From the NCBI GenBank assembly GCA_016218925.1, contig JACRCR010000160.1, positions 1 through 64,000 on the forward strand: a stretch of 64,000 bases of DNA, in the 5' to 3' direction. Of this stretch, positions 17,254-40,001 are shown one piece after another. The translations under genes were made by a program, and so were the position numbers. The notes under the pieces were generated by a model. It was given only the letters and a program-made list of their open reading frames with translations, did not search any database and was not told the origin of the DNA. This stretch comes from Deltaproteobacteria bacterium (GTDB lineage Bacteria; Desulfobacterota; Binatia; UBA1149; CAITLU01). The stretch's first letter is position 1; every line of letters starts with the position of its first letter.

Positions 17254-18741
17254 ATGGATCTGAGCAACGCCGACTCCCTGGCCTACCACGTCCCCGAGCT
17301 GGTGCTGGCGGGTGGCAGCATCGTGGTGCTGCTGCTCGACCTTTTCACCAGGCTCAAGGCCCGGCTCGGCGAAGTGGCGCTGCTGGTAGTGGCGACTTCG
17401 GTGCTTGCGGTCGGCTTCGGCGCAGGCGCGGACCAGGGCTACCTGTTCAACCGGATGGTGGCGCTGGATTCGTTCGCGCTGTTCTTCAAACTCCTGCTCG
17501 GCTTCGCCGCTCTGGGCGCGATATGGATGTCGACCGGATCGCGCGAACTCGACGGCGAACATCCCGGCGAGTACTACTCGATACTGCTCGCCAGCACGGT
17601 CGGCATGTTCTACATGGCATCGGCCACCAACCTGCTGACCGCGTATCTCGCGCTCGAGTTCGTCAGCCTGACCTCGTACATCCTGGCGGGGTTTCTGCGC
17701 CACCGCGCGCGCGGCGCCGAGGCGTCGCTCAAGTATCTGATCTACGGCGGAGTGGCGTCAGGGGCGATGCTCTACGGCTTCAGTCTGCTGTACGCGCTAA
17801 CCGGCACGCTCGATTTCATCGAGCTCGGCCACAGGCTCTCGACGGTGGCGGCGGTGCCCGGTAACGGGGCGATACTGTTCATCGCGGTGGTGCTGTCGCT
17901 GGCCGGCATCGGATACAAGATCGCGATGGTGCCGTTTCACCAGTGGAGCCCCGACGTCTACGAGGGCGCGCCGCTTCCGATCACCGCGTTCCTCGCGGTG
18001 GGCTCGAAGGCGGCGGGGATGGCTCTGCTGATCCGCTTCTTCTATCCCGCGCTGTCATCGCCGGCGGGCGACGGCACTTGGATTGCGCTGCACGGAGTCG
18101 GGTGGCCGGCGCTGATGAGCGTCGTGGCGATGGCTACGATGACCGTCGGTAACCTGACGGCGCTACGCCAGCAGAACGTCAAGCGCCTGCTCGCCTACTC
18201 GTCGATCGCCCATGCCGGCTACATGTTGATGGGCTTCGTCGTGCTGAGCGACGCCGGGCTGCGGGCGATCCTGTTCTATACGGTCGTCTATTACCTGATG
18301 AACCTCGGCGCTTTCGCGGTGCTGCTGCTGGTGGTGAACCAGACCGGTCGCGAGGACATCGAGGCGTTCCGCGGCCTGGCCTGGAGAGGCGGCGCTCCGG
18401 CGGCCATCGCGATGCTGATCTTCCTGTTCTCGCTCGCCGGGCTTCCGCCGTTCGCCGGTTTCATCGGCAAGGCCTACCTGTTCGCGGCGGTGATCGAGCA
18501 GAAGATGTGGCTGCTGGCGTTCGTCGCGGCTGCCAACAGCGTTGTCGGTCTCTACTACTACGCCCGTGTCGCGCGCGCGATGTTCCTGGATCAGCCGCTG
18601 GCGGGCGATCCCGAGATCGCCGTCGATCTCTCCAACGGGCTGCTGATCGGGATGCTGCTGGCCGGCACGCTGGTGTTCGGTTTGTGGTGGACTCCGATCG
18701 TCAACTTCGCCGACCGCTCCCTGGTGTTCTTCGGCAACTGA
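17254..18741 (+). CDS. nuoN: NADH-quinone oxidoreductase subunit N
   Basis: A 495-residue third antiporter-like subunit. It includes YLALEFVSLTSYILAGFLRH, EASLKYLIYGGVASGAMLYG, YKIAMVPFHQWSPDVYEGAPLP-type sequence split across the conserved Lys helix, and QQNVKRLLAYSSIAHAGYML. It is the last nuo gene. A GC-rich hairpin (18763-18785) follows its stop. The operon therefore reads A-B-C-D-H-I-J-K-L-M-N with no E, F or G. Confidence 0.95.
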   Translation: MDLSNADSLAYHVPELVLAGGSIVVLLLDLFTRLKARLGEVALLVVATSVLAVGFGAGADQGYLFNRMVALDSFALFFKLLLGFAALGAIWMSTGSRELDGEHPGEYYSILLASTVGMFYMASATNLLTAYLALEFVSLTSYILAGFLRHRARGAEASLKYLIYGGVASGAMLYGFSLLYALTGTLDFIELGHRLSTVAAVPGNGAILFIAVVLSLAGIGYKIAMVPFHQWSPDVYEGAPLPITAFLAVGSKAAGMALLIRFFYPALSSPAGDGTWIALHGVGWPALMSVVAMATMTVGNLTALRQQNVKRLLAYSSIAHAGYMLMGFVVLSDAGLRAILFYTVVYYLMNLGAFAVLLLVVNQTGREDIEAFRGLAWRGGAPAAIAMLIFLFSLAGLPPFAGFIGKAYLFAAVIEQKMWLLAFVAAANSVVGLYYYARVARAMFLDQPLAGDPEIAVDLSNGLLIGMLLAGTLVFGLWWTPIVNFADRSLVFFGN

Positions 18742-18762
18742 GTGATCGACCTCGCGGCGCGA

Positions 18763-18785
18763 GGCAGCGCTTCGGGTTCGCTGCC
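18763..18785 (+). terminator. Hairpin after the nuo operon
   Basis: GGCAGCG (18763-18769) pairs with CGCTGCC (18779-18785) across a 9-base loop, 22 bases past the nuoN stop. There is no U-tract after it, so it may be a weak or Rho-assisted terminator or a 3'-end stabilising hairpin. Confidence 0.4.
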
Positions 18786-18797
18786 GTGTCCTGTTGA

Positions 18798-18848
18798 TCT
18801 CAACTCGGACCGATCGAGCGGGCAAATCGAAAGGCGCGACTTGACCCC
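18798..18848 (-). repeat. Dispersed repeat, diverged inverted copy (GGGGTCAAGTCGCG family)
   Basis: Read on the minus strand from 18848, this begins GGGGTCAAGTCGCGCCTTTC and ends GAGTTGAGA. It matches the two tandem copies at 39121-39173 and 39179-39231, with the most divergence in the middle (CCCGCTCGATCGGTC here versus CCGTCGCGACCGGTC). It sits between nuoN and the stop of the small gene at 18849, in opposite orientation to the other copies. Confidence 0.75.
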
Positions 18849-19094
18849 CTACTCTTTTTTCTTGAGTTGGGCGCGGTTCGCTTCGATGAAGGCGCGCAGA
18901 TCGTCGGCCCTGCCGAGCAGCGTTTCCCACTGCTCGACGTAGAGGGTGACCGGGAAGCGGCCCATCCCGTAGACGGAGACGCCGCCTTTCTCGGAGACCT
19001 TGAACGATATCCCGCCGGGCTTGGTCGCCTTCTTCAGCGCTTCGTTCTCGGCTCTGAGCCTCGCGATTTCGGCAGCAGGATCCTCGTACGCCAT
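18849..19094 (-). CDS. Small conserved-looking hypothetical protein (81 aa)
   Basis: Start ATG at 19094 (MAYEDPAAEIARLRAENEAL) with a good GGAGGA ribosome site just before it. The first 25 residues form a short coiled-coil-like helix. The rest, GGISFKVSEKGGVSVYGMGR then FPVTLYVEQWETLL and DDLRAFIEAN, reads like a compact globular domain, and I recall similar short proteins in other bacterial genomes, without a known function. A longer version from further upstream lacks a ribosome site and is Arg-rich. No membrane segment or signal peptide is visible. It stands alone between nuoN and the 19426 gene. Confidence 0.7.
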   Translation of the reverse strand: MAYEDPAAEIARLRAENEALKKATKPGGISFKVSEKGGVSVYGMGRFPVTLYVEQWETLLGRADDLRAFIEANRAQLKKKE

Positions 19095-19425
19095 ACATTC
19101 CTCCGTGTTGACTCGTCTATCAGTCCGAGTTCGGCGAGCACACTGCTCGTTGCGCCGCTCGGGTGCAATCGCACGCTGGAGCGCCGTTCGCTGACGACGT
19201 TTCGTCGTTTCGAGTGGCGATGCAACTGAGCGTTCGGTCATCTGCGTCGCGTTCGATGCGACGACGCGTGCGATCGCGAGCAGCGCAGCGAGATTCTCAT
19301 CGTCGGCTCTTGACGAACACTCACGCGTGGATGTCTATATGGGTCTCTGCCGGCCAACCGCATCGAGGCCGTAACAGTTCATAACGGGATACTGCAGCAT
19401 CGAGGGGTGCTGCCAGGAGGCTTCA
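19095..19425 (+). promoter_or_regulatory. Intergenic region with candidate promoter for the 19426 gene
   Basis: No gene is seen in these 331 bases. A TTGACG at 19310-19315 followed 18 bases later by TCTATA (19334-19339) is a plausible -35/-10 pair, giving an untranslated leader of about 80 bases. The leader ends with AGGAGG before the ATG at 19426. The promoter call is tentative. Confidence 0.35.
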
Positions 19426-21363
19426 ATGGCTCACTTCGATTTTCTCGATAGGAGGACGCTGATCGCGGCGCTGTCCGCGGTCGGACTCGCAGGCGCGATG
19501 ATGGTGGGGGGCACCAGCGCGTTGGCCGCGGGGCCGAGCGCATTCTGCCACACCGTTGACGGGACGTTCACCGATTGCACTCCGGGCCCGCCGGCCGAAG
19601 AGTGGTCGGACATTCCCGGCGATTCATTCCTGAACGGAGGAAGCTTCGTCTACGCGGATCAAAATCCCAGCCACACCACGTTGTATCTGTTGTACGACTA
19701 TCCTCTCGGCACCAGTCCTCTGGGTCCCACCGAGTGCGCTACGATCGACTTCGACGTGCAGGAACTCAACAAACTCGATCACTATCAGGTGCAGGCCGGC
19801 AACTGCGCGACCGGCGGCTTTGACGTGCTGGTCAACAACGTCAAACTTCCGGAGCGACTCGAAGAGGGCCTCGAAGCCGCGGCCGGCTTCGACGTTTCGC
19901 CCAACTCGGGAACTCCCCACCAGATCTACGAACTGTCGGTGCCGCTGGTGCTGGTCTACCAGCCCGACGATCCGCGCTTCTGGACGAGCGGATTCCCGAC
20001 CCCGCCCGCCGATCCCGATCCCAACGCCGATTTCGACGGCGACGGACTCCTCGACACGCAGGACAACTGTCCGTTCACGCCGAACCCGGCGCAGGAGGAC
20101 TCCGACCATGACGGCACCGGCGACGCGTGCACCACTTGCCCGGGAGCTGACGGTGACGGCGACGGAGTCCCCGACGTGACCGACAACTGCCCGAGCGTCC
20201 CGAATCGCAATCAGCGCGACTTCGACGGTGACGGCAAGGGCGATCGTTGCGACTCGTGTCCCAAGTTCGTGGATCCGGTCGAGTGCGGTCCCAAGCTCTC
20301 CGACAGGGACAAGGACGGCGCGGCCGATGGCGCCGACAACTGCCCGCTCGTGTCCAATCCCGATCAAGCCAACGCCGATGGCGACCTGTTCGGCGACCTG
20401 TGCGATCCTTGTCCGCAAGACGCGACGAATAGCTGCGACGCACAAGCGCAGTGCAAATCGTGCTTCCCGGATTCGGACGGTGACGGGGCGCCGGACAATG
20501 CCGACAACTGCCGCTCGGTGGCCAACGCCGACCAGTCCGACCCCGACGCCGATGAAGTGGGCGACCTGTGCGACAACTGCCCGGCTTCGCCGCAGGACGA
20601 CTGCGGCCCTGGCGCCGACAACGACGCTGACGGATTCGCCAACGAAAAGGACAATTGCCCGGGACAGGCCAACCCGGGACAGGACGATAGCGACTTCGAC
20701 GACTTCGGCAACGTCTGCGACCCGTGTCCCGACGATGCCACCAACGGCTGCGTGCGCTGCACCCCGGGCGGAGTACCGCTTCCGCGCAGCACCGGCGGCG
20801 ACCTCATTCAAGGGCACGGCTCGGTGCTGAACGCCAAGTCCGACGGTACCACTACCAGCGAGCCGCGAGCGCAGTGTCCGTCGCCGAATCTGTGCGCCGA
20901 CGACAATCCGAAACTGGTCTACAAGTTCCTGAAGAAGAAGATCGCCGCGCTGATCAAGTGCGCCAAGATGGGCACCGACCCGTGCGACTTGTCTGCCGTC
21001 AACGCGCTCGGAGGAATCTCGCTGGGCTGCCAGGGGGTCGCCGAGTGCGCGGTCGACGGTGCGATCGAGGCACTGCTCGGCGACAACAATCCGCCGCTCA
21101 CTCCGCTCACCGGCGTGTGTGCGCTGGGGATCCTTTCCGACGGCACCAAGTACGTGAAGAAACTGGTGCTCAACCACAGCAAGGGGAAAGACGACCTGAC
21201 CCCGGCCCAGGCCACGCTGAGGAAGAGCATGATCGCCGGCAAGTGCCCCGATCCGCTCGCGGTGCCGGTCAGTCTGGGCGCCGGCTGTGACGGAAAGCCG
21301 ACACGCACCGAGTCGATCGACTGCCTGTTCAGTCAACTCCAGCGCGCCAATCCGCTGCCGTAG
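19426..21363 (+). CDS. Secreted protein with thrombospondin type 3-like calcium-binding repeats
   Basis: A 645-residue exported protein. The signal peptide is at residues 1-35 (LIAALSAVGLAGAMMVGGTSALAA). Residues 36-190 form a domain I do not recognise, containing HTTLYLLYDYPLGTSPLG. From about residue 200 to 440 there are repeats of the form DFDGDGLLDTQDNCP, spaced with paired cysteines, as in thrombospondin type 3/OmpA-linked calcium-binding repeats. The C-terminal 200 residues are Cys-containing and Lys-rich (KLVYKFLKKKIAALIKCAKM). Ribosome site AGGAGG precedes the ATG. It is probably surface-exposed or secreted and stabilised by Ca2+ and disulfides. Two more exported proteins follow on the same strand. 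Confidence 0.85.
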   Translation: MAHFDFLDRRTLIAALSAVGLAGAMMVGGTSALAAGPSAFCHTVDGTFTDCTPGPPAEEWSDIPGDSFLNGGSFVYADQNPSHTTLYLLYDYPLGTSPLGPTECATIDFDVQELNKLDHYQVQAGNCATGGFDVLVNNVKLPERLEEGLEAAAGFDVSPNSGTPHQIYELSVPLVLVYQPDDPRFWTSGFPTPPADPDPNADFDGDGLLDTQDNCPFTPNPAQEDSDHDGTGDACTTCPGADGDGDGVPDVTDNCPSVPNRNQRDFDGDGKGDRCDSCPKFVDPVECGPKLSDRDKDGAADGADNCPLVSNPDQANADGDLFGDLCDPCPQDATNSCDAQAQCKSCFPDSDGDGAPDNADNCRSVANADQSDPDADEVGDLCDNCPASPQDDCGPGADNDADGFANEKDNCPGQANPGQDDSDFDDFGNVCDPCPDDATNGCVRCTPGGVPLPRSTGGDLIQGHGSVLNAKSDGTTTSEPRAQCPSPNLCADDNPKLVYKFLKKKIAALIKCAKMGTDPCDLSAVNALGGISLGCQGVAECAVDGAIEALLGDNNPPLTPLTGVCALGILSDGTKYVKKLVLNHSKGKDDLTPAQATLRKSMIAGKCPDPLAVPVSLGAGCDGKPTRTESIDCLFSQLQRANPLP

Positions 21364-21370
21364 GGAGACG

Positions 21371-22573
21371 GTGGCGCTTCAGCGCAAGGGCGGCGGGTGC
21401 GAGAGGCGGCGGTTTTGCCGCCGCCTCTCGCACCGTGTCGTGGCCGTTCTGGCGCTGTCTCTTGCCGCCGCGGCCGAGGCCGTCCCGGGAGATCCGCTGC
21501 CCGCGTTGTCGCCGGCGCATCTCGTCTGGTTCAACGAAGGCGCCGCCGCTTTCAGCGAAGAGTATGTGGCGGAGGACGGCCTCGGTCCCATTTTCAACGA
21601 CAGGTCGTGCGTTGCGTGTCACTCGACGCCGGCGCCGGGAGGGGGCTCGGAGCGCACGGTCACTCGTTTCGGACGCAGCGAGAGCGGGAACTTCGATCCG
21701 CTGGTGTCGATGGGCGGACCTCTGCTGCAAGCGCAGGCGATCGATCCCGCATGCGTCGAGACGGTTCCTGCGGAGGCCAACGTCATCGTCGGGCGCCTGA
21801 CCACTCCGATGTTCGGCGCGGGCCTGATCGAAGCGATTCCGGACGAAGACATCGCGGCGCTGGCCGACCCGGGTGACAGCGACGGTGACGGCATCTCCGG
21901 ACGGCTGCACATGGTGCAGTATCCGGGACGACCGCGCGTGGGTCGCTTCGGCTGGAAGTCGCAGGAAGCGACTCTGCTGTCATTCTCCTCCGACGCGATG
22001 GTGAGCGAGATGGGCCTGACCAACGCGCTCGCCCCCGGGACCACGGCGCCGGGCGGGGACGTCGCGCTGCTGGCCGCCTGCGAGGCCATCGAAGGCCGGG
22101 CCGATCCCGAGGACGCGGTAGGGCCGGAGGGCTTCACCGATCTGGTCAAGGTCACCAACTTCGCGCGGCTGCTGGCACCGCCCACGCCGTCGGTCCGGCC
22201 GACCGGCAGGGGATGGCGCCTGTTCCGGCGCGCGCGCTGCGAAACCTGCCACGTGGCCCGTTGGAACACCGGTTCGCACACGGTCGAAGAACTCGCTTTC
22301 GTGAGGTTCTATCCGTACAGCGACTTTCTGCTCCACGACATGGGCGCGCTCGGCGATGGGATCGTGCAAGGTGCGGCCGCTGCCACCGAGATGCGCACCG
22401 CGCCGCTGTGGGGGATCGGCGCACGCACGCGCTATCTGCACGACGGTCGCGCGACCAGCCTGCTCGAGGCCGTCCAGGCGCACGGCGGCGAGGCGGCCGC
22501 GTCGCGCGCTCGCTTCGATGCGCTGCCCGCAGTCGGAAAGCGCAAGCTTCTCGATTTCGTCGCCGGACGCTGA
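21371..22573 (+). CDS. Di-heme oxidoreductase-like c-type cytochrome (DUF1111 family)
   Basis: About 400 residues from a GTG at 21371, chosen for its GGGAGA ribosome site; an earlier in-frame start lies inside the previous gene. The N-terminus is Arg-rich then hydrophobic (VVAVLALSLAAAAEA), a signal peptide. Two heme c motifs are present: CVACH at residues 80-84 and CETCH at about 290-294. The region FNEGAAAFSEEY and GPIFNDRSCVACH matches the DUF1111 (DHOR) family, distantly related to MauG and di-heme peroxidases. The end LHDGRATSLLEAVQAHGGEA is also typical. It should be a periplasmic or surface redox protein; the substrate is unknown. Confidence 0.85.
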   Translation: MALQRKGGGCERRRFCRRLSHRVVAVLALSLAAAAEAVPGDPLPALSPAHLVWFNEGAAAFSEEYVAEDGLGPIFNDRSCVACHSTPAPGGGSERTVTRFGRSESGNFDPLVSMGGPLLQAQAIDPACVETVPAEANVIVGRLTTPMFGAGLIEAIPDEDIAALADPGDSDGDGISGRLHMVQYPGRPRVGRFGWKSQEATLLSFSSDAMVSEMGLTNALAPGTTAPGGDVALLAACEAIEGRADPEDAVGPEGFTDLVKVTNFARLLAPPTPSVRPTGRGWRLFRRARCETCHVARWNTGSHTVEELAFVRFYPYSDFLLHDMGALGDGIVQGAAAATEMRTAPLWGIGARTRYLHDGRATSLLEAVQAHGGEAAASRARFDALPAVGKRKLLDFVAGR

Positions 22574-22716
22574 ACAGCCGCGCACCCGATGATGCGCTTC
22601 CCGGGTTGATCGCGAGGCCGGCACCCGGGATTGCTGGCACCGGCACCGAAACTGGCCCAGAATCGCCTCCTCGGCGTGGGGAGACCTGCGCTCACTTCCA
22701 CGCGAGGCGGACGAAC

Positions 22717-23835
22717 ATGGCGGCTAGCAGCGGCAGCGATGGCAAGGGCAACGGCAGTGGCGACGGCAGCAGCGGCTCGCGCGCGGTGCGCGGAAGCGTG
22801 GACCGGCGCCGCAAGGCGAGACCGAGCGCCCGAGTGTCCCTGGCCGCCCTCATCGCGGCCGCCAGTGCGGTCGGCGTTCTCGGACTAGCCGGCTGTGGCC
22901 CGGGCGGTGGCGACGAGACGATTGCGTTCTTCCTGGATCCGACCGCCAAGACGCTGTCGCGAATCCAGTTCGTCGTCGACGTCTCCAGCGGCAAGTTCTC
23001 GGGTCCGGATGGAGGATGCGAAGTCGGTGCAGCCGCCGGACCTCGTTCCATCTACGAGTTGCAGCTGGCCAAAGAGCAGGCCGCCAACGCGAGGGCGATT
23101 GCCGTGACGGACGAGGCGGCGCCGTCTTTCTCTGAGCAGGCGGGTTCTGCTCCGGTCAGTTCAGTGGAGGCGGCCAGCTCCTCGAGTACCTCGAGCTCGA
23201 CGTTGATCACAGGCACGACCTCGACCACCGACACGACGACCACTACCGATGGTCCGACCACGACTACTACGACTACGATCACCACTACGACGACGACCAC
23301 CACCACTACCACCACGCTGACCTCGTCGGTGTGCGGCAACGGCGCGGTAGAGGGGAGCGAGCAGTGCGACGACGGCAACAAGACCAACGGTGACGGTTGC
23401 GACCGCGACTGCGTTACCGAAGTGTGTGGCAACGCCAAGGTGCAGAGCGGCGAGGAGTGCGACGACGGAGATCTGGAGGCGGACGACGGTTGTGACGCCG
23501 CGTGCAAAGCCGAGTTCGTGTTCACCGCGGCCAATTCCGACACCGGACAACTCACCATCACGATCACCAACGGCAAAGGGATAGCACCCGGGGCCACGCT
23601 GGCGTTCTGCAAGTTCGAGCGAGACGGAACCTCCGACCCGGGTTTCGACCTGCTGACGACGATCTGTCTCCTCACCAACGGAACCGCGTGCGAGCACGCC
23701 GCGATCGACGGAGGCGTGAGCGTCAGTACTACGACGACCACCACGACCACGACCACCACCACGTCGAGCACGACGACGACCTCGACGACGACGACGACGA
23801 CAACCATCCGGCAGCTGCTCGGTTCCCAACGATGA
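22717..23835 (+). CDS. Lipoprotein with Thr-rich tracts and two DUF4215 Cys-rich repeats
   Basis: About 372 residues. The first 40 are polar and basic, followed by a hydrophobic segment (VSLAALIAAASAVGVLGLAGC) ending in a lipobox, so a lipoprotein is likely; the long n-region is unusual. After a small domain comes a Thr tract at about residues 150-203, then two DUF4215 repeats, CGNGAVEGSEQCDDGNKTNG (about 206) and CGNAKVQSGEECDDGDLEAD (about 237), which are common in Myxococcota surface proteins. A second Thr tract runs at about 338-366 and the protein ends abruptly in IRQLLGSQR. The Thr tracts are likely spacer or glycosylated stalks. Confidence 0.75.
   Translation: MAASSGSDGKGNGSGDGSSGSRAVRGSVDRRRKARPSARVSLAALIAAASAVGVLGLAGCGPGGGDETIAFFLDPTAKTLSRIQFVVDVSSGKFSGPDGGCEVGAAAGPRSIYELQLAKEQAANARAIAVTDEAAPSFSEQAGSAPVSSVEAASSSSTSSSTLITGTTSTTDTTTTTDGPTTTTTTTITTTTTTTTTTTTLTSSVCGNGAVEGSEQCDDGNKTNGDGCDRDCVTEVCGNAKVQSGEECDDGDLEADDGCDAACKAEFVFTAANSDTGQLTITITNGKGIAPGATLAFCKFERDGTSDPGFDLLTTICLLTNGTACEHAAIDGGVSVSTTTTTTTTTTTTSSTTTTSTTTTTTTIRQLLGSQR
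23170..23325 (+). repeat. ACN-triplet low-complexity tract (poly-Thr coding), copy 1
   Basis: The coding strand is a run of near-uniform ACC/ACG/ACT/ACA codons with a few Ser and Asp codons, giving a Thr-rich linker just upstream of the DUF4215 repeats. Triplet tracts like this change length easily without breaking the frame. Confidence 0.8.
23727..23813 (+). repeat. ACN-triplet low-complexity tract (poly-Thr coding), copy 2
   Basis: A second Thr/Ser triplet tract lies in the last 40 codons of the 22717 gene. It closely precedes the stop codon, which may mean that a domain once followed and was lost through slippage in the tract. Confidence 0.8.
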
Positions 23836-37864: not shown

Positions 37865-39112
37865 ATGCAATATCTGGATCTGGACCTCGACCTGACCGAT
37901 CGCGAACGCGAGCTTCGCGCGGCCGCGCACCAGTTTGCGGCCGACGTTCTGCGTCCGGCCGCAAAGGCACTCGATGAGATGCCCGCCGACCGGGTCGTCG
38001 AGAAGAACTCGCCGCTTTACGAGGTGCTGCGCAAAGCCTATCGGCTCGGATACCACACCATCGGTATTCCCGAAGAGCTCGGCGGGCAGGGGCTCTCGCC
38101 GCGCGAGCGCCACATAGTCTCGGAGGAACTCGCCTGGGGCTGCTCGGGGCTGGCGATCGCGATCGGGGTGGCGTCGTTCCCGTCGCTGGCCGCCGCGATG
38201 TCGGGCAACCCCGATCTGATCAAGACCTACGTCACGCCGTTCCTCAGCGACACCGAAGCCAGGATGATCGGCTGCTGGGGCGGCACCGAGCCCAACCACG
38301 GCTCCGATTTCGTCGCTCTGGGAGCGGCCGAGAACAGCAATCCGGCGATCGTTCCGGACGTGCGCGCCAGGCTGGTCGGCGACGAGTGGGTCATCAGCGG
38401 CCAGAAGTCGCAGTGGGTGAGCCTCGGCACCATCGCCACCCACACGCTCGCCTTCCTGTCGGTAGACCCGAGCAAAGGCATGTCGGGCAACGGCGTGTGC
38501 ATCATTCCGCTCGAGCAACCCGGCGTTTCCAAGGGGCCCGCGCTCAACAAGCTCGGCCAGCGCCCGCTCAACCAGGGCGAGCTGTTCTTCGACGACGCGC
38601 GCGCTCCGCAAGACCACATGCTGGTGGGCCCCGAGATGTACGACATGTACGTCGACGGCATTTTGGCGATGGCCAATGCGCTGATGAGCGCGACCTTCAC
38701 CGGCGTGGCGCGCGCGGCCTTCGAGGAGGCGCTGGCCTACAGCAAGACGCGCATTCAGGGCGGCAAACCGTTGTGCGAGCATCAGCTCATCCAGCGGATG
38801 CTCTTCGAGATGTTCATGAAGGTGGAGGCGTGTCGCCGGCTCTCGCGCGCTGCCTACTGTTACAACGCGGTGACGATGCCGCCGGCCGTCGAGTATTCGA
38901 TCGCGGCGAAGGTGTTCTGCACGCAGGCGTCTTTTGACGTGGCGTCGATGGCTCTGCAGATCCACGGTGGCTACGGCCTCAGCAAGGACTACGTCGTCGA
39001 GAAGCTGTTCCGCGACGCGCGCGCGTCGCTGATCGAAGACGGTACCAACGAAGTGCTCGGACTCGCCGCCGCGCGCAAACTGGTCGAGCGCTACGGGAAC
39101 GCGGTGAGCTGA
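37865..39112 (+). CDS. Acyl-CoA dehydrogenase
   Basis: A 415-residue flavoprotein with AAGGAG ribosome site before the ATG. GCWGGTEPNHGSD and the FAD region SGQKSQWVSLGTIATH match the family. At the position of the catalytic Glu of medium-chain enzymes (YEGT) it has IEDGTNEV, so the base may be Asp. It shares VDPSKGMSGNGV and other segments with the dehydrogenase at 51013, suggesting they are paralogues. The substrate is unknown. The tandem repeat follows after its stop. Confidence 0.9.
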   Translation: MQYLDLDLDLTDRERELRAAAHQFAADVLRPAAKALDEMPADRVVEKNSPLYEVLRKAYRLGYHTIGIPEELGGQGLSPRERHIVSEELAWGCSGLAIAIGVASFPSLAAAMSGNPDLIKTYVTPFLSDTEARMIGCWGGTEPNHGSDFVALGAAENSNPAIVPDVRARLVGDEWVISGQKSQWVSLGTIATHTLAFLSVDPSKGMSGNGVCIIPLEQPGVSKGPALNKLGQRPLNQGELFFDDARAPQDHMLVGPEMYDMYVDGILAMANALMSATFTGVARAAFEEALAYSKTRIQGGKPLCEHQLIQRMLFEMFMKVEACRRLSRAAYCYNAVTMPPAVEYSIAAKVFCTQASFDVASMALQIHGGYGLSKDYVVEKLFRDARASLIEDGTNEVLGLAAARKLVERYGNAVS

Positions 39113-39120
39113 AAGCTGGA

Positions 39121-39173
39121 GGGGTCAAGTCGCGCCTTTCGATTTGCCGTCGCGACCGGTCGGAGCTGAGAGG
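39121..39173 (+). repeat. Tandem copy 1 of the GGGGTCAAGTCGCG repeat
   Basis: A 53-bp unit starting GGGGTCAAGTCGCGCCTTTC and ending GAGCTGAGAGG, 9 bases after the 37865 stop. It differs from copy 2 at four positions. A diverged inverted copy lies at 18798-18848. Confidence 0.88.
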
Positions 39174-39178
39174 GTAGG

Positions 39179-39231
39179 GGGGTCAAGTCGCGGCTTTCGA
39201 TATGTCGTCGCGACCGGTCGGAGTTGAGAGG
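39179..39231 (+). repeat. Tandem copy 2 of the GGGGTCAAGTCGCG repeat
   Basis: A 53-bp unit starting GGGGTCAAGTCGCGGCTTTC and ending GAGTTGAGAGG, with a period of 58 bases relative to copy 1. It ends 15 bases before the isomerase ATG and supplies the GAGAGGAAGG that acts as its ribosome site. Confidence 0.88.
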
Positions 39232-39245
39232 AAGGCGCAGGTGCC

Positions 39246-40001
39246 ATGGGCAACGTAACGATCGAACGCGAAGGTGCGGTGGCAGTCTTGCGACTGGCCC
39301 GTGCACCGGTCAATGCGCTGGAACTCGAGTTCGCCCGCGAGTTCGAAACGGCGCTGCTCGAGCTGACGCCCGCGCAAGGGGTAGGTGCCATCGTGCTGGC
39401 GGGCAGCGGCGGTTGCTTCTCGGCAGGCCTCGATCTGAAACGGGTGCCCTTCTACAGCTTCGAACAGCAGCGCGAGATGGTCGCGACGGCCAACCGGATT
39501 CTCGCCTGGCTCTACGGGTGTCCGCTCCCGGTGGTGGCGGCGGTGACCGGACATGCGATCGCCGGCGGTCTGATCTTCGTGCTGGCTTGCGATTATCGCG
39601 TAGGCAGCGGCGCGCCGTGCAAGATCGGTCTCACCGAGGCGCAGGTCGGGATCCCGGTCCCGGCGGTGGCGATGGAGGTGCTGCGGGCGGAGGTCGCGCC
39701 GCACGTGGCACGCGTGCTGGCGCTGCGCGCGCGCAACATCGGACCGCAGGCCGCTCTCGCGTTCGGTGTTCTCGACGAGTTGCAGCCACCCGACCGCGTC
39801 CTGCCGGTGGCGATCGAACGGGCGCATGAAATGGCGGCGATGCCCGTGCAGGGGTACGCGAAGATCAAACGCCAGCTGCGCTCCGAAGCGTTGGCCCGGA
39901 TCGAGGAAATCCTCGCGGGCGGTACCGATCCGATGCTTCGGTCGTGGGTTACAGAGGGCGCCGGAGAGGCCGCCGCCGCACTGTTGCGTGGAGCGAAGTA
40001 G
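39246..40001 (+). CDS. Delta3-delta2-enoyl-CoA isomerase-like crotonase
   Basis: A 251-residue crotonase. APVNALELEFAREFETAL and GCFSAGLDLKRV closely follow the mitochondrial enoyl-CoA isomerase ECI1. In the second catalytic segment, GHAIAGGLIFVLACDYRVG lacks the first hydratase Glu, whereas IGLTEAQVGIPVP keeps the Glu that ECI1 uses as its single base. This supports an isomerase and argues against enoyl-CoA hydratase. It would shift double bonds for beta-oxidation. It lies between the two acyl-CoA dehydrogenases, 36 bases before the second. Confidence 0.85.
   Translation: MGNVTIEREGAVAVLRLARAPVNALELEFAREFETALLELTPAQGVGAIVLAGSGGCFSAGLDLKRVPFYSFEQQREMVATANRILAWLYGCPLPVVAAVTGHAIAGGLIFVLACDYRVGSGAPCKIGLTEAQVGIPVPAVAMEVLRAEVAPHVARVLALRARNIGPQAALAFGVLDELQPPDRVLPVAIERAHEMAAMPVQGYAKIKRQLRSEALARIEEILAGGTDPMLRSWVTEGAGEAAAALLRGAK

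Follow-up and report, generated by a model that had tools for sequence, protein, structure and literature searches.

A dispersed repeat family in a Binatia genome resembles the TIRs of a RAYT/TIRYT-type element and carries head-anchored micro-duplications

Introduction

TIRYT elements, or TIRtrons, are RAYT-like genes flanked by TIRs that share the motif GGGGWSAS; their dispersed TIR families are moderately abundant, with some copies arranged as dimers or clusters (Di Nocera et al. 2013, PMC3733652). Most TIRYT were assigned to subclass 2.1 of TnpA-REP, which equals RAYT group 1, by Quentin et al. (2018, PMC6006769); their survey described subclass 2.1 C-termini as Bac_DnaA_C or HTH and saw no REP-like sequences in the vicinity of these genes.

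Here we describe a repeat family in a Binatia genome (GCA_016218925.1), starting from three copies in one window, the 64,000-nt stretch of contig JACRCR010000160.1 that was analysed. As in the TIRYT account (PMC3733652), a Y1 transposase gene lies between inverted repeats with a GGGGWSAS-like motif: GGGGTCAA matches seven of the eight positions of GGGG[AT][CG]A[CG], and relatives with GGGGTCAG match all eight. Copies are likewise dispersed as singles, dimers and clusters, and, as for some TIRs in that account, one overlaps a gene end, that of the transposase gene itself, on contig C180. Unlike the TIRYT described there, this family has more than 130 heads, most of them solitary or in head-to-tail order, and an extra conserved tail. 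It also shows micro-duplications anchored at the heads, of which we found no mention in the parts of that account drawn on here or in a limited literature search. The enzyme resembles TnpA-REP subclass 2.1.2 (PMC6006769) in its length of about 330 aa, its HUH and YxxxNP motifs and conserved serines, its Bac_DnaA_C-like C-terminus and its patchy distribution; unlike the genes of the subclass 2.1 survey, its gene sits amid more than 130 dispersed head copies.

Results

Three copies in the window

The two direct copies (39121-39173 and 39179-39231, both on the forward strand) agree at 49 of 53 positions (92%), in keeping with the period of 58 and the four differences first described, and occupy most of the 133-nt spacer between a dehydrogenase and an isomerase gene (Table 1). 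The diverged inverted copy near nuoN also held up: it is 85–88% complementary over 51–52 nt at 18798-18848, and it really reaches about 18783, beyond the end first noted. These are the only exact heads in the window, and a scan of it with two to three mismatches gave no more further head matches than chance would. A private variant, CGTCGCGACC, is common to copies 1 and 2, which suggests that a copy inserted between the dehydrogenase and isomerase genes and was later duplicated locally.

Table 1. Repeat copies and neighbouring features in the window
Feature	Position	Strand	Comment
TIR-family repeat copy 1 (head 39121-39146, tail up to copy 2)	39121..39178	+	
TIR-family repeat copy 2, head to tail after copy 1	39179..39241	+	
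TIR-family repeat copy 3, full-length	18783..18848	-	
Acyl-CoA dehydrogenase-like gene, upstream of copies 1 and 2	37865..39112	+	L278 same-genus homologue, 84% nt identity
Enoyl-CoA hydratase/isomerase-like gene, downstream of copies 1 and 2	39246..40001	+	71% aa identity in G001
Purine-rich stretch GAGAGGAAGG at copy 2 tail, possible ribosome-binding site	39226..39235	+	by eye, inferred
nuoN-like gene beside copy 3	17254..18741	+	
Small ORF convergent with nuoN; TAG stop abuts copy 3 GGGG head	18849..19241	-	

The second copy had been proposed to supply the ribosome site of the isomerase gene. A purine run, GAGAGGAAGG, does lie 10 nt before the isomerase ATG, but it runs across the end of the 53-nt match, and its role as the ribosome site is a plausible reading made by eye. 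RNA folding of the window copies was no better than that of shuffled sequence, and scans of these copies found no terminator-like site, no promoter-like site and no Rfam match. With folding, terminator and promoter scans negative, nothing shows that copies 1 and 2 affect the operon. They are most likely a tolerated passenger turned spacer, perhaps part of a ribosome site; being spacer DNA from a mobile repeat, they matter little to the acyl-CoA operon.

Elsewhere in the window, the same-genus genome (G001) has different DNA after nuoN, at 18742-22618, with homology returning only near 22619, so about 3.9 kb, including copy 3 and a 645-aa ORF (19426-21363), differs between the species. Within that ORF, 20035-20661 holds six 39-nt repeats encoding Asp-rich D.DGD...D.DNCP-like motifs, which look calcium-binding and thrombospondin type 3-like. 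At 23191-23826, two ACN-rich low-complexity arrays, apparently Thr-rich linkers, lie around Cys-rich CGNG...E.CDDG motifs.

A genome-wide intergenic family

The original prediction called for a genome-wide search for further copies. In the assembly (4.66 Mb, 245 contigs, 94% complete) the 14-mer GGGGTCAAGTCGCG occurs 132 times, 65 forward and 67 reverse, and its reversed control not once; the 23-mer GGGGTCAAGTCGCGNCTTTCGAT matches at 144 places with up to three mismatches, again against 0 in the control. Because about 11 copies sit within roughly 100 nt of a contig end, the true copy number is probably higher. The 53-nt match between the window copies is real, but the family unit seen in aligned copies spans about 66 nt: its 5' edge, at GGGG, is sharp, and a conserved 23-nt head is followed by a weaker tail of about 40 nt (consensus CTCGACCGGTCGGAGYTGAGATSAAGGGTACAGGGG), which is present in 75 of 141 aligned copies. 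Practically all copies start with GGGGT, and the dinucleotide on the 5' flank is purine-purine in 84% of first copies, against a background of 23%. The idea that the tail is an independent repeat was rejected, as almost every tail match directly follows a head, intact or degraded; so was a preference for sites after stop codons, suggested by the TAG beside copy 3, which was seen at 7 of 73 first copies.

The intergenic setting noted in the window extends across the genome: 93 of 108 assessable copies (86%) lie between genes, whereas about 20% of random points are non-coding. These counts come from a simple codon-based gene finder that leaves start codons unrefined; for this reason, and because several of the copies it scored as 'in-gene' are close to a predicted gene end, the true intergenic share is probably 86% or higher. 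Neither outcome that the original prediction had set against itself, a lack of further copies or copies in coding sequence only, was seen. The neighbouring genes are convergent at 33 of 87 copies, same-direction at 42 and divergent at 12, and the repeat runs with transcription in 24 cases and against it in 18. Most copies stand alone or follow one another head to tail; 44 head-to-tail neighbours lie within 90 nt of each other.

The head is only partly palindromic. At least seven of eight pairs, G-T allowed, are kept by 72 of 131 heads; the left arm does not vary, whereas the right arm has changes that are not compensated. A head beside the transposase gene folds at z -5.0, and the window copies fold like shuffles.

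The transposase gene

A Y1_Tnp profile search of the genome found two genes, on contigs C180 and C235, neither of which is the window contig, in agreement with the earlier statement that the window holds no such transposase. The C180 gene encodes 328 aa and matches Y1_Tnp at E 1e-8 and the NCBIfam model REP_Tyr_transpos at 2.6e-20 (72.8 bits, below the cut-off of 80). Its C-terminus resembles DnaA domain IV (DnaA chain of PDB 3pvp, E 7e-4), with a weak, below-cut-off match to Pfam Bac_DnaA_C (E 0.015). H60-Y61-H62 (HUH) and Y119...N123-P124 (YxxxNP) are invariant in the alignment with relatives. As had been anticipated for a RAYT gene, it is flanked by copies: inward-pointing inverted GGGGTCAAGTCGCGGCTTGCGAC heads, two on each side, with the stop codon of the gene inside one of them. 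Judged from its sequence, the C180 gene is the genome's one RAYT-type gene, and its enzyme is apparently intact.

The C235 gene encodes a 155-aa IS200-type protein. It was rejected as the source of the repeats, with no flanking copies seen and the nearest found 26 kb away. By analogy, the family may share Y1 HUH chemistry and insertion beside a short target with IS200/IS605, but the true IS200 gene of this genome lies at a distance from its copies.

Relatives and other genomes

The same-genus genome G001 has zero copies of the repeat and no close RAYT. The dehydrogenase and isomerase genes are neighbours there too (DNA 84% and 81% identical), separated by a repeat-free spacer of 75 nt (acd-ech). 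Because the spacers do not align, that of G001 being unrelated sequence, we regard this as an unoccupied locus and not as a clean empty site. At the nuoN site of G001, homology breaks off at the stop codon of that gene, too early for an empty site to be judged, and the comparison yielded no clean empty site.

In G003, of the same family, there are 17 exact heads; an intact 1142-bp element, with ends identical for 27–29 nt, contains a RAYT that is 58% identical. G002 has 49 heads, and no close RAYT was found in its fragmented assembly (85% complete, 1680 contigs). Both genomes also contain elements of about 75–90 bp (roughly 85 bp in G003) in which two inverted heads surround a short centre, a layout like that of a REPIN or MITE. 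G004, G005 and G006 lack copies as well as a close RAYT; the last two gave only distant RAYT matches, about 35% identical. Further afield, in Desulfobacterota, Gammaproteobacteria, Planctomycetota, Omnitrophota and others, most of the RAYT relatives inspected have inverted GGGGTCA[AG]GTC-like ends.

Three side observations come from these genomes. The nuoN homologue of G003 (L293, G003:C110:18317-19789) has two in-frame TAG codons, which may reflect an assembly error, a pseudogene or another cause. One genome of the same class (G013) gave 23 RAYT-like protein matches, several of them full length, against the one usual copy. In a Thiohalocapsa MAG (L146, reverse strand, about 2300-2860), around 15 GGGGTCAGTTCTCG-type heads form a dense array, packed with partial-head duplications, near a related RAYT.

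Micro-duplications at heads

Thirteen of the 44 head-to-tail pairs share at least 5 bases upstream of GGGG, against 0.35 expected. Perfect 11–16-bp tandem duplications number 21 in the 10.7 kb around heads and 3 in 332 kb elsewhere, an enrichment at copies of about 200-fold, and GGGGTC lies within 18 of the 21. The duplicated unit consists of 5–12 nt of flank plus GGGGTC or GGGGTCA, directly repeated before the full head. In an unbiased scan, the right ends cluster at head positions +6/+7, just after GGGGTC or GGGGTCA (16 events in this genome), with fewer at +2, +15, +24 and +34; in relatives they gather from +6 to +9. Breakpoint microhomology is about as frequent as expected by chance, with none in 21 of 37 events. 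Of 148 genomes of the class, 10 contain the adjacency pattern GGGGTCA-N4-10-GGGGTCARGTC, whereas its reversed control gave no match. The duplications are a property of the head and recur at distant TIRYT loci.

The main rival to an enzymatic origin, and one to which we give a chance a little short of even, concerns only these short head-anchored duplications and attributes them to replication slippage provoked by a hairpin instead of to transposase cutting. The breakpoint lies at the foot of a potential stem, a possible stall point for the polymerase, and tandem duplications are the classic product of slippage. Slippage should favour homology, yet over half of the events have none, and the ends cluster at +6/+7 even at heads whose palindrome is degenerate. 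Alternatively, and this we put forward as possible rather than probable, the micro-duplications are in-vivo footprints of group 1 RAYT/TIRYT action. Each repeat would be cut preferentially at two places, the first a short way into the head and the second some nucleotides before it, and the cut products would be rejoined between sister strands to give the micro-duplications; we propose both the cuts and the rejoining with modest confidence.

Discussion

We conclude, with a probability of about 0.87, that the repeats are non-autonomous TIR copies of a RAYT/TIRYT-type element (RAYT group 1, TnpA-REP subclass 2.1.2) whose autonomous source is the C180 gene. The basis is the copy number, the orientation of the heads around the gene, the intergenic sites, the patchy presence of the family and the intact relatives with perfect TIRs. 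Some observations count against it. First, the tail of about 40 nt seen in solo units is absent from the RAYT element's own ends. Second, G002 carries 49 copies, with no close RAYT found there. Third, no clean empty site turned up, and the heads are only partly palindromic, with window copies that fold like shuffles.

If the repeats are such TIR copies, the enzyme probably binds the conserved 23-nt head as single-stranded DNA and may cut near GGGGTC(A) and in the 5' flank. Heads would then be joined on the 3' side of two purines, in many cases next to copies already present, and insertion of this kind would build the head-to-tail arrays.

The original prediction compared the family to REP elements spread by a tyrosine transposase. 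It was right about the kind, an intergenic family with a flanked RAYT gene, and wrong about the branch, which is that of TIRYT and not of GTAG REPs. It is unlikely that these repeats form a classical REP/REPIN family, tagged with GTAG and mobilised by a RAYT of group 2 or 3. Such families, for example that of E. coli TnpA-REP (PMC8266576), do resemble ours: they are short, intergenic and high in copy, one transposase gene is flanked by copies and a guide-like 5' tag precedes the stem; the partial palindrome and the fold of the RAYT-side copy also point that way. However, the tag here is GGGGTC, the GT[AG]G tag is missing, the palindrome is only partly maintained, with its invariant left arm and its right arm drifting uncompensated, and the enzyme has another C-terminal domain, the DnaA-like one of subclass 2.1. 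Because of this tag, the conservation of the left arm only and the DnaA-like C-terminus, we place the family with TIR/TIRYT and not with strict REPs.

A selected regulatory or RNA element conserved between genes (a terminator, riboswitch or mRNA stabiliser) would fit the largely intergenic sites, the 33 convergent gene pairs and the position in an operon spacer, but is very improbable given RNA folding z values near 0 or positive, no Rfam match or terminator-like site, both orientations relative to transcription and absence from the same-genus genome.

The family is new, the kind of mobile repeat is already known, and the duplication scar is the unusual part. The genome adds to the least understood branch of REP-associated transposases an example that is rich in copies and was probably active not long ago, and it has repeats where one survey found none associated with such transposases. 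An intact-looking enzyme, more than 100 substrates, a repeat-free relative of the same genus and the scar together allow a substrate, a target preference and cut sites to be proposed from sequence. If the footprint reading of the micro-duplications is true, they would map, by inference, the cleavage sites of a large group of transposases on which we found no biochemistry, and this map would hold across phyla, since the same signature is seen at TIRs in unrelated lineages.
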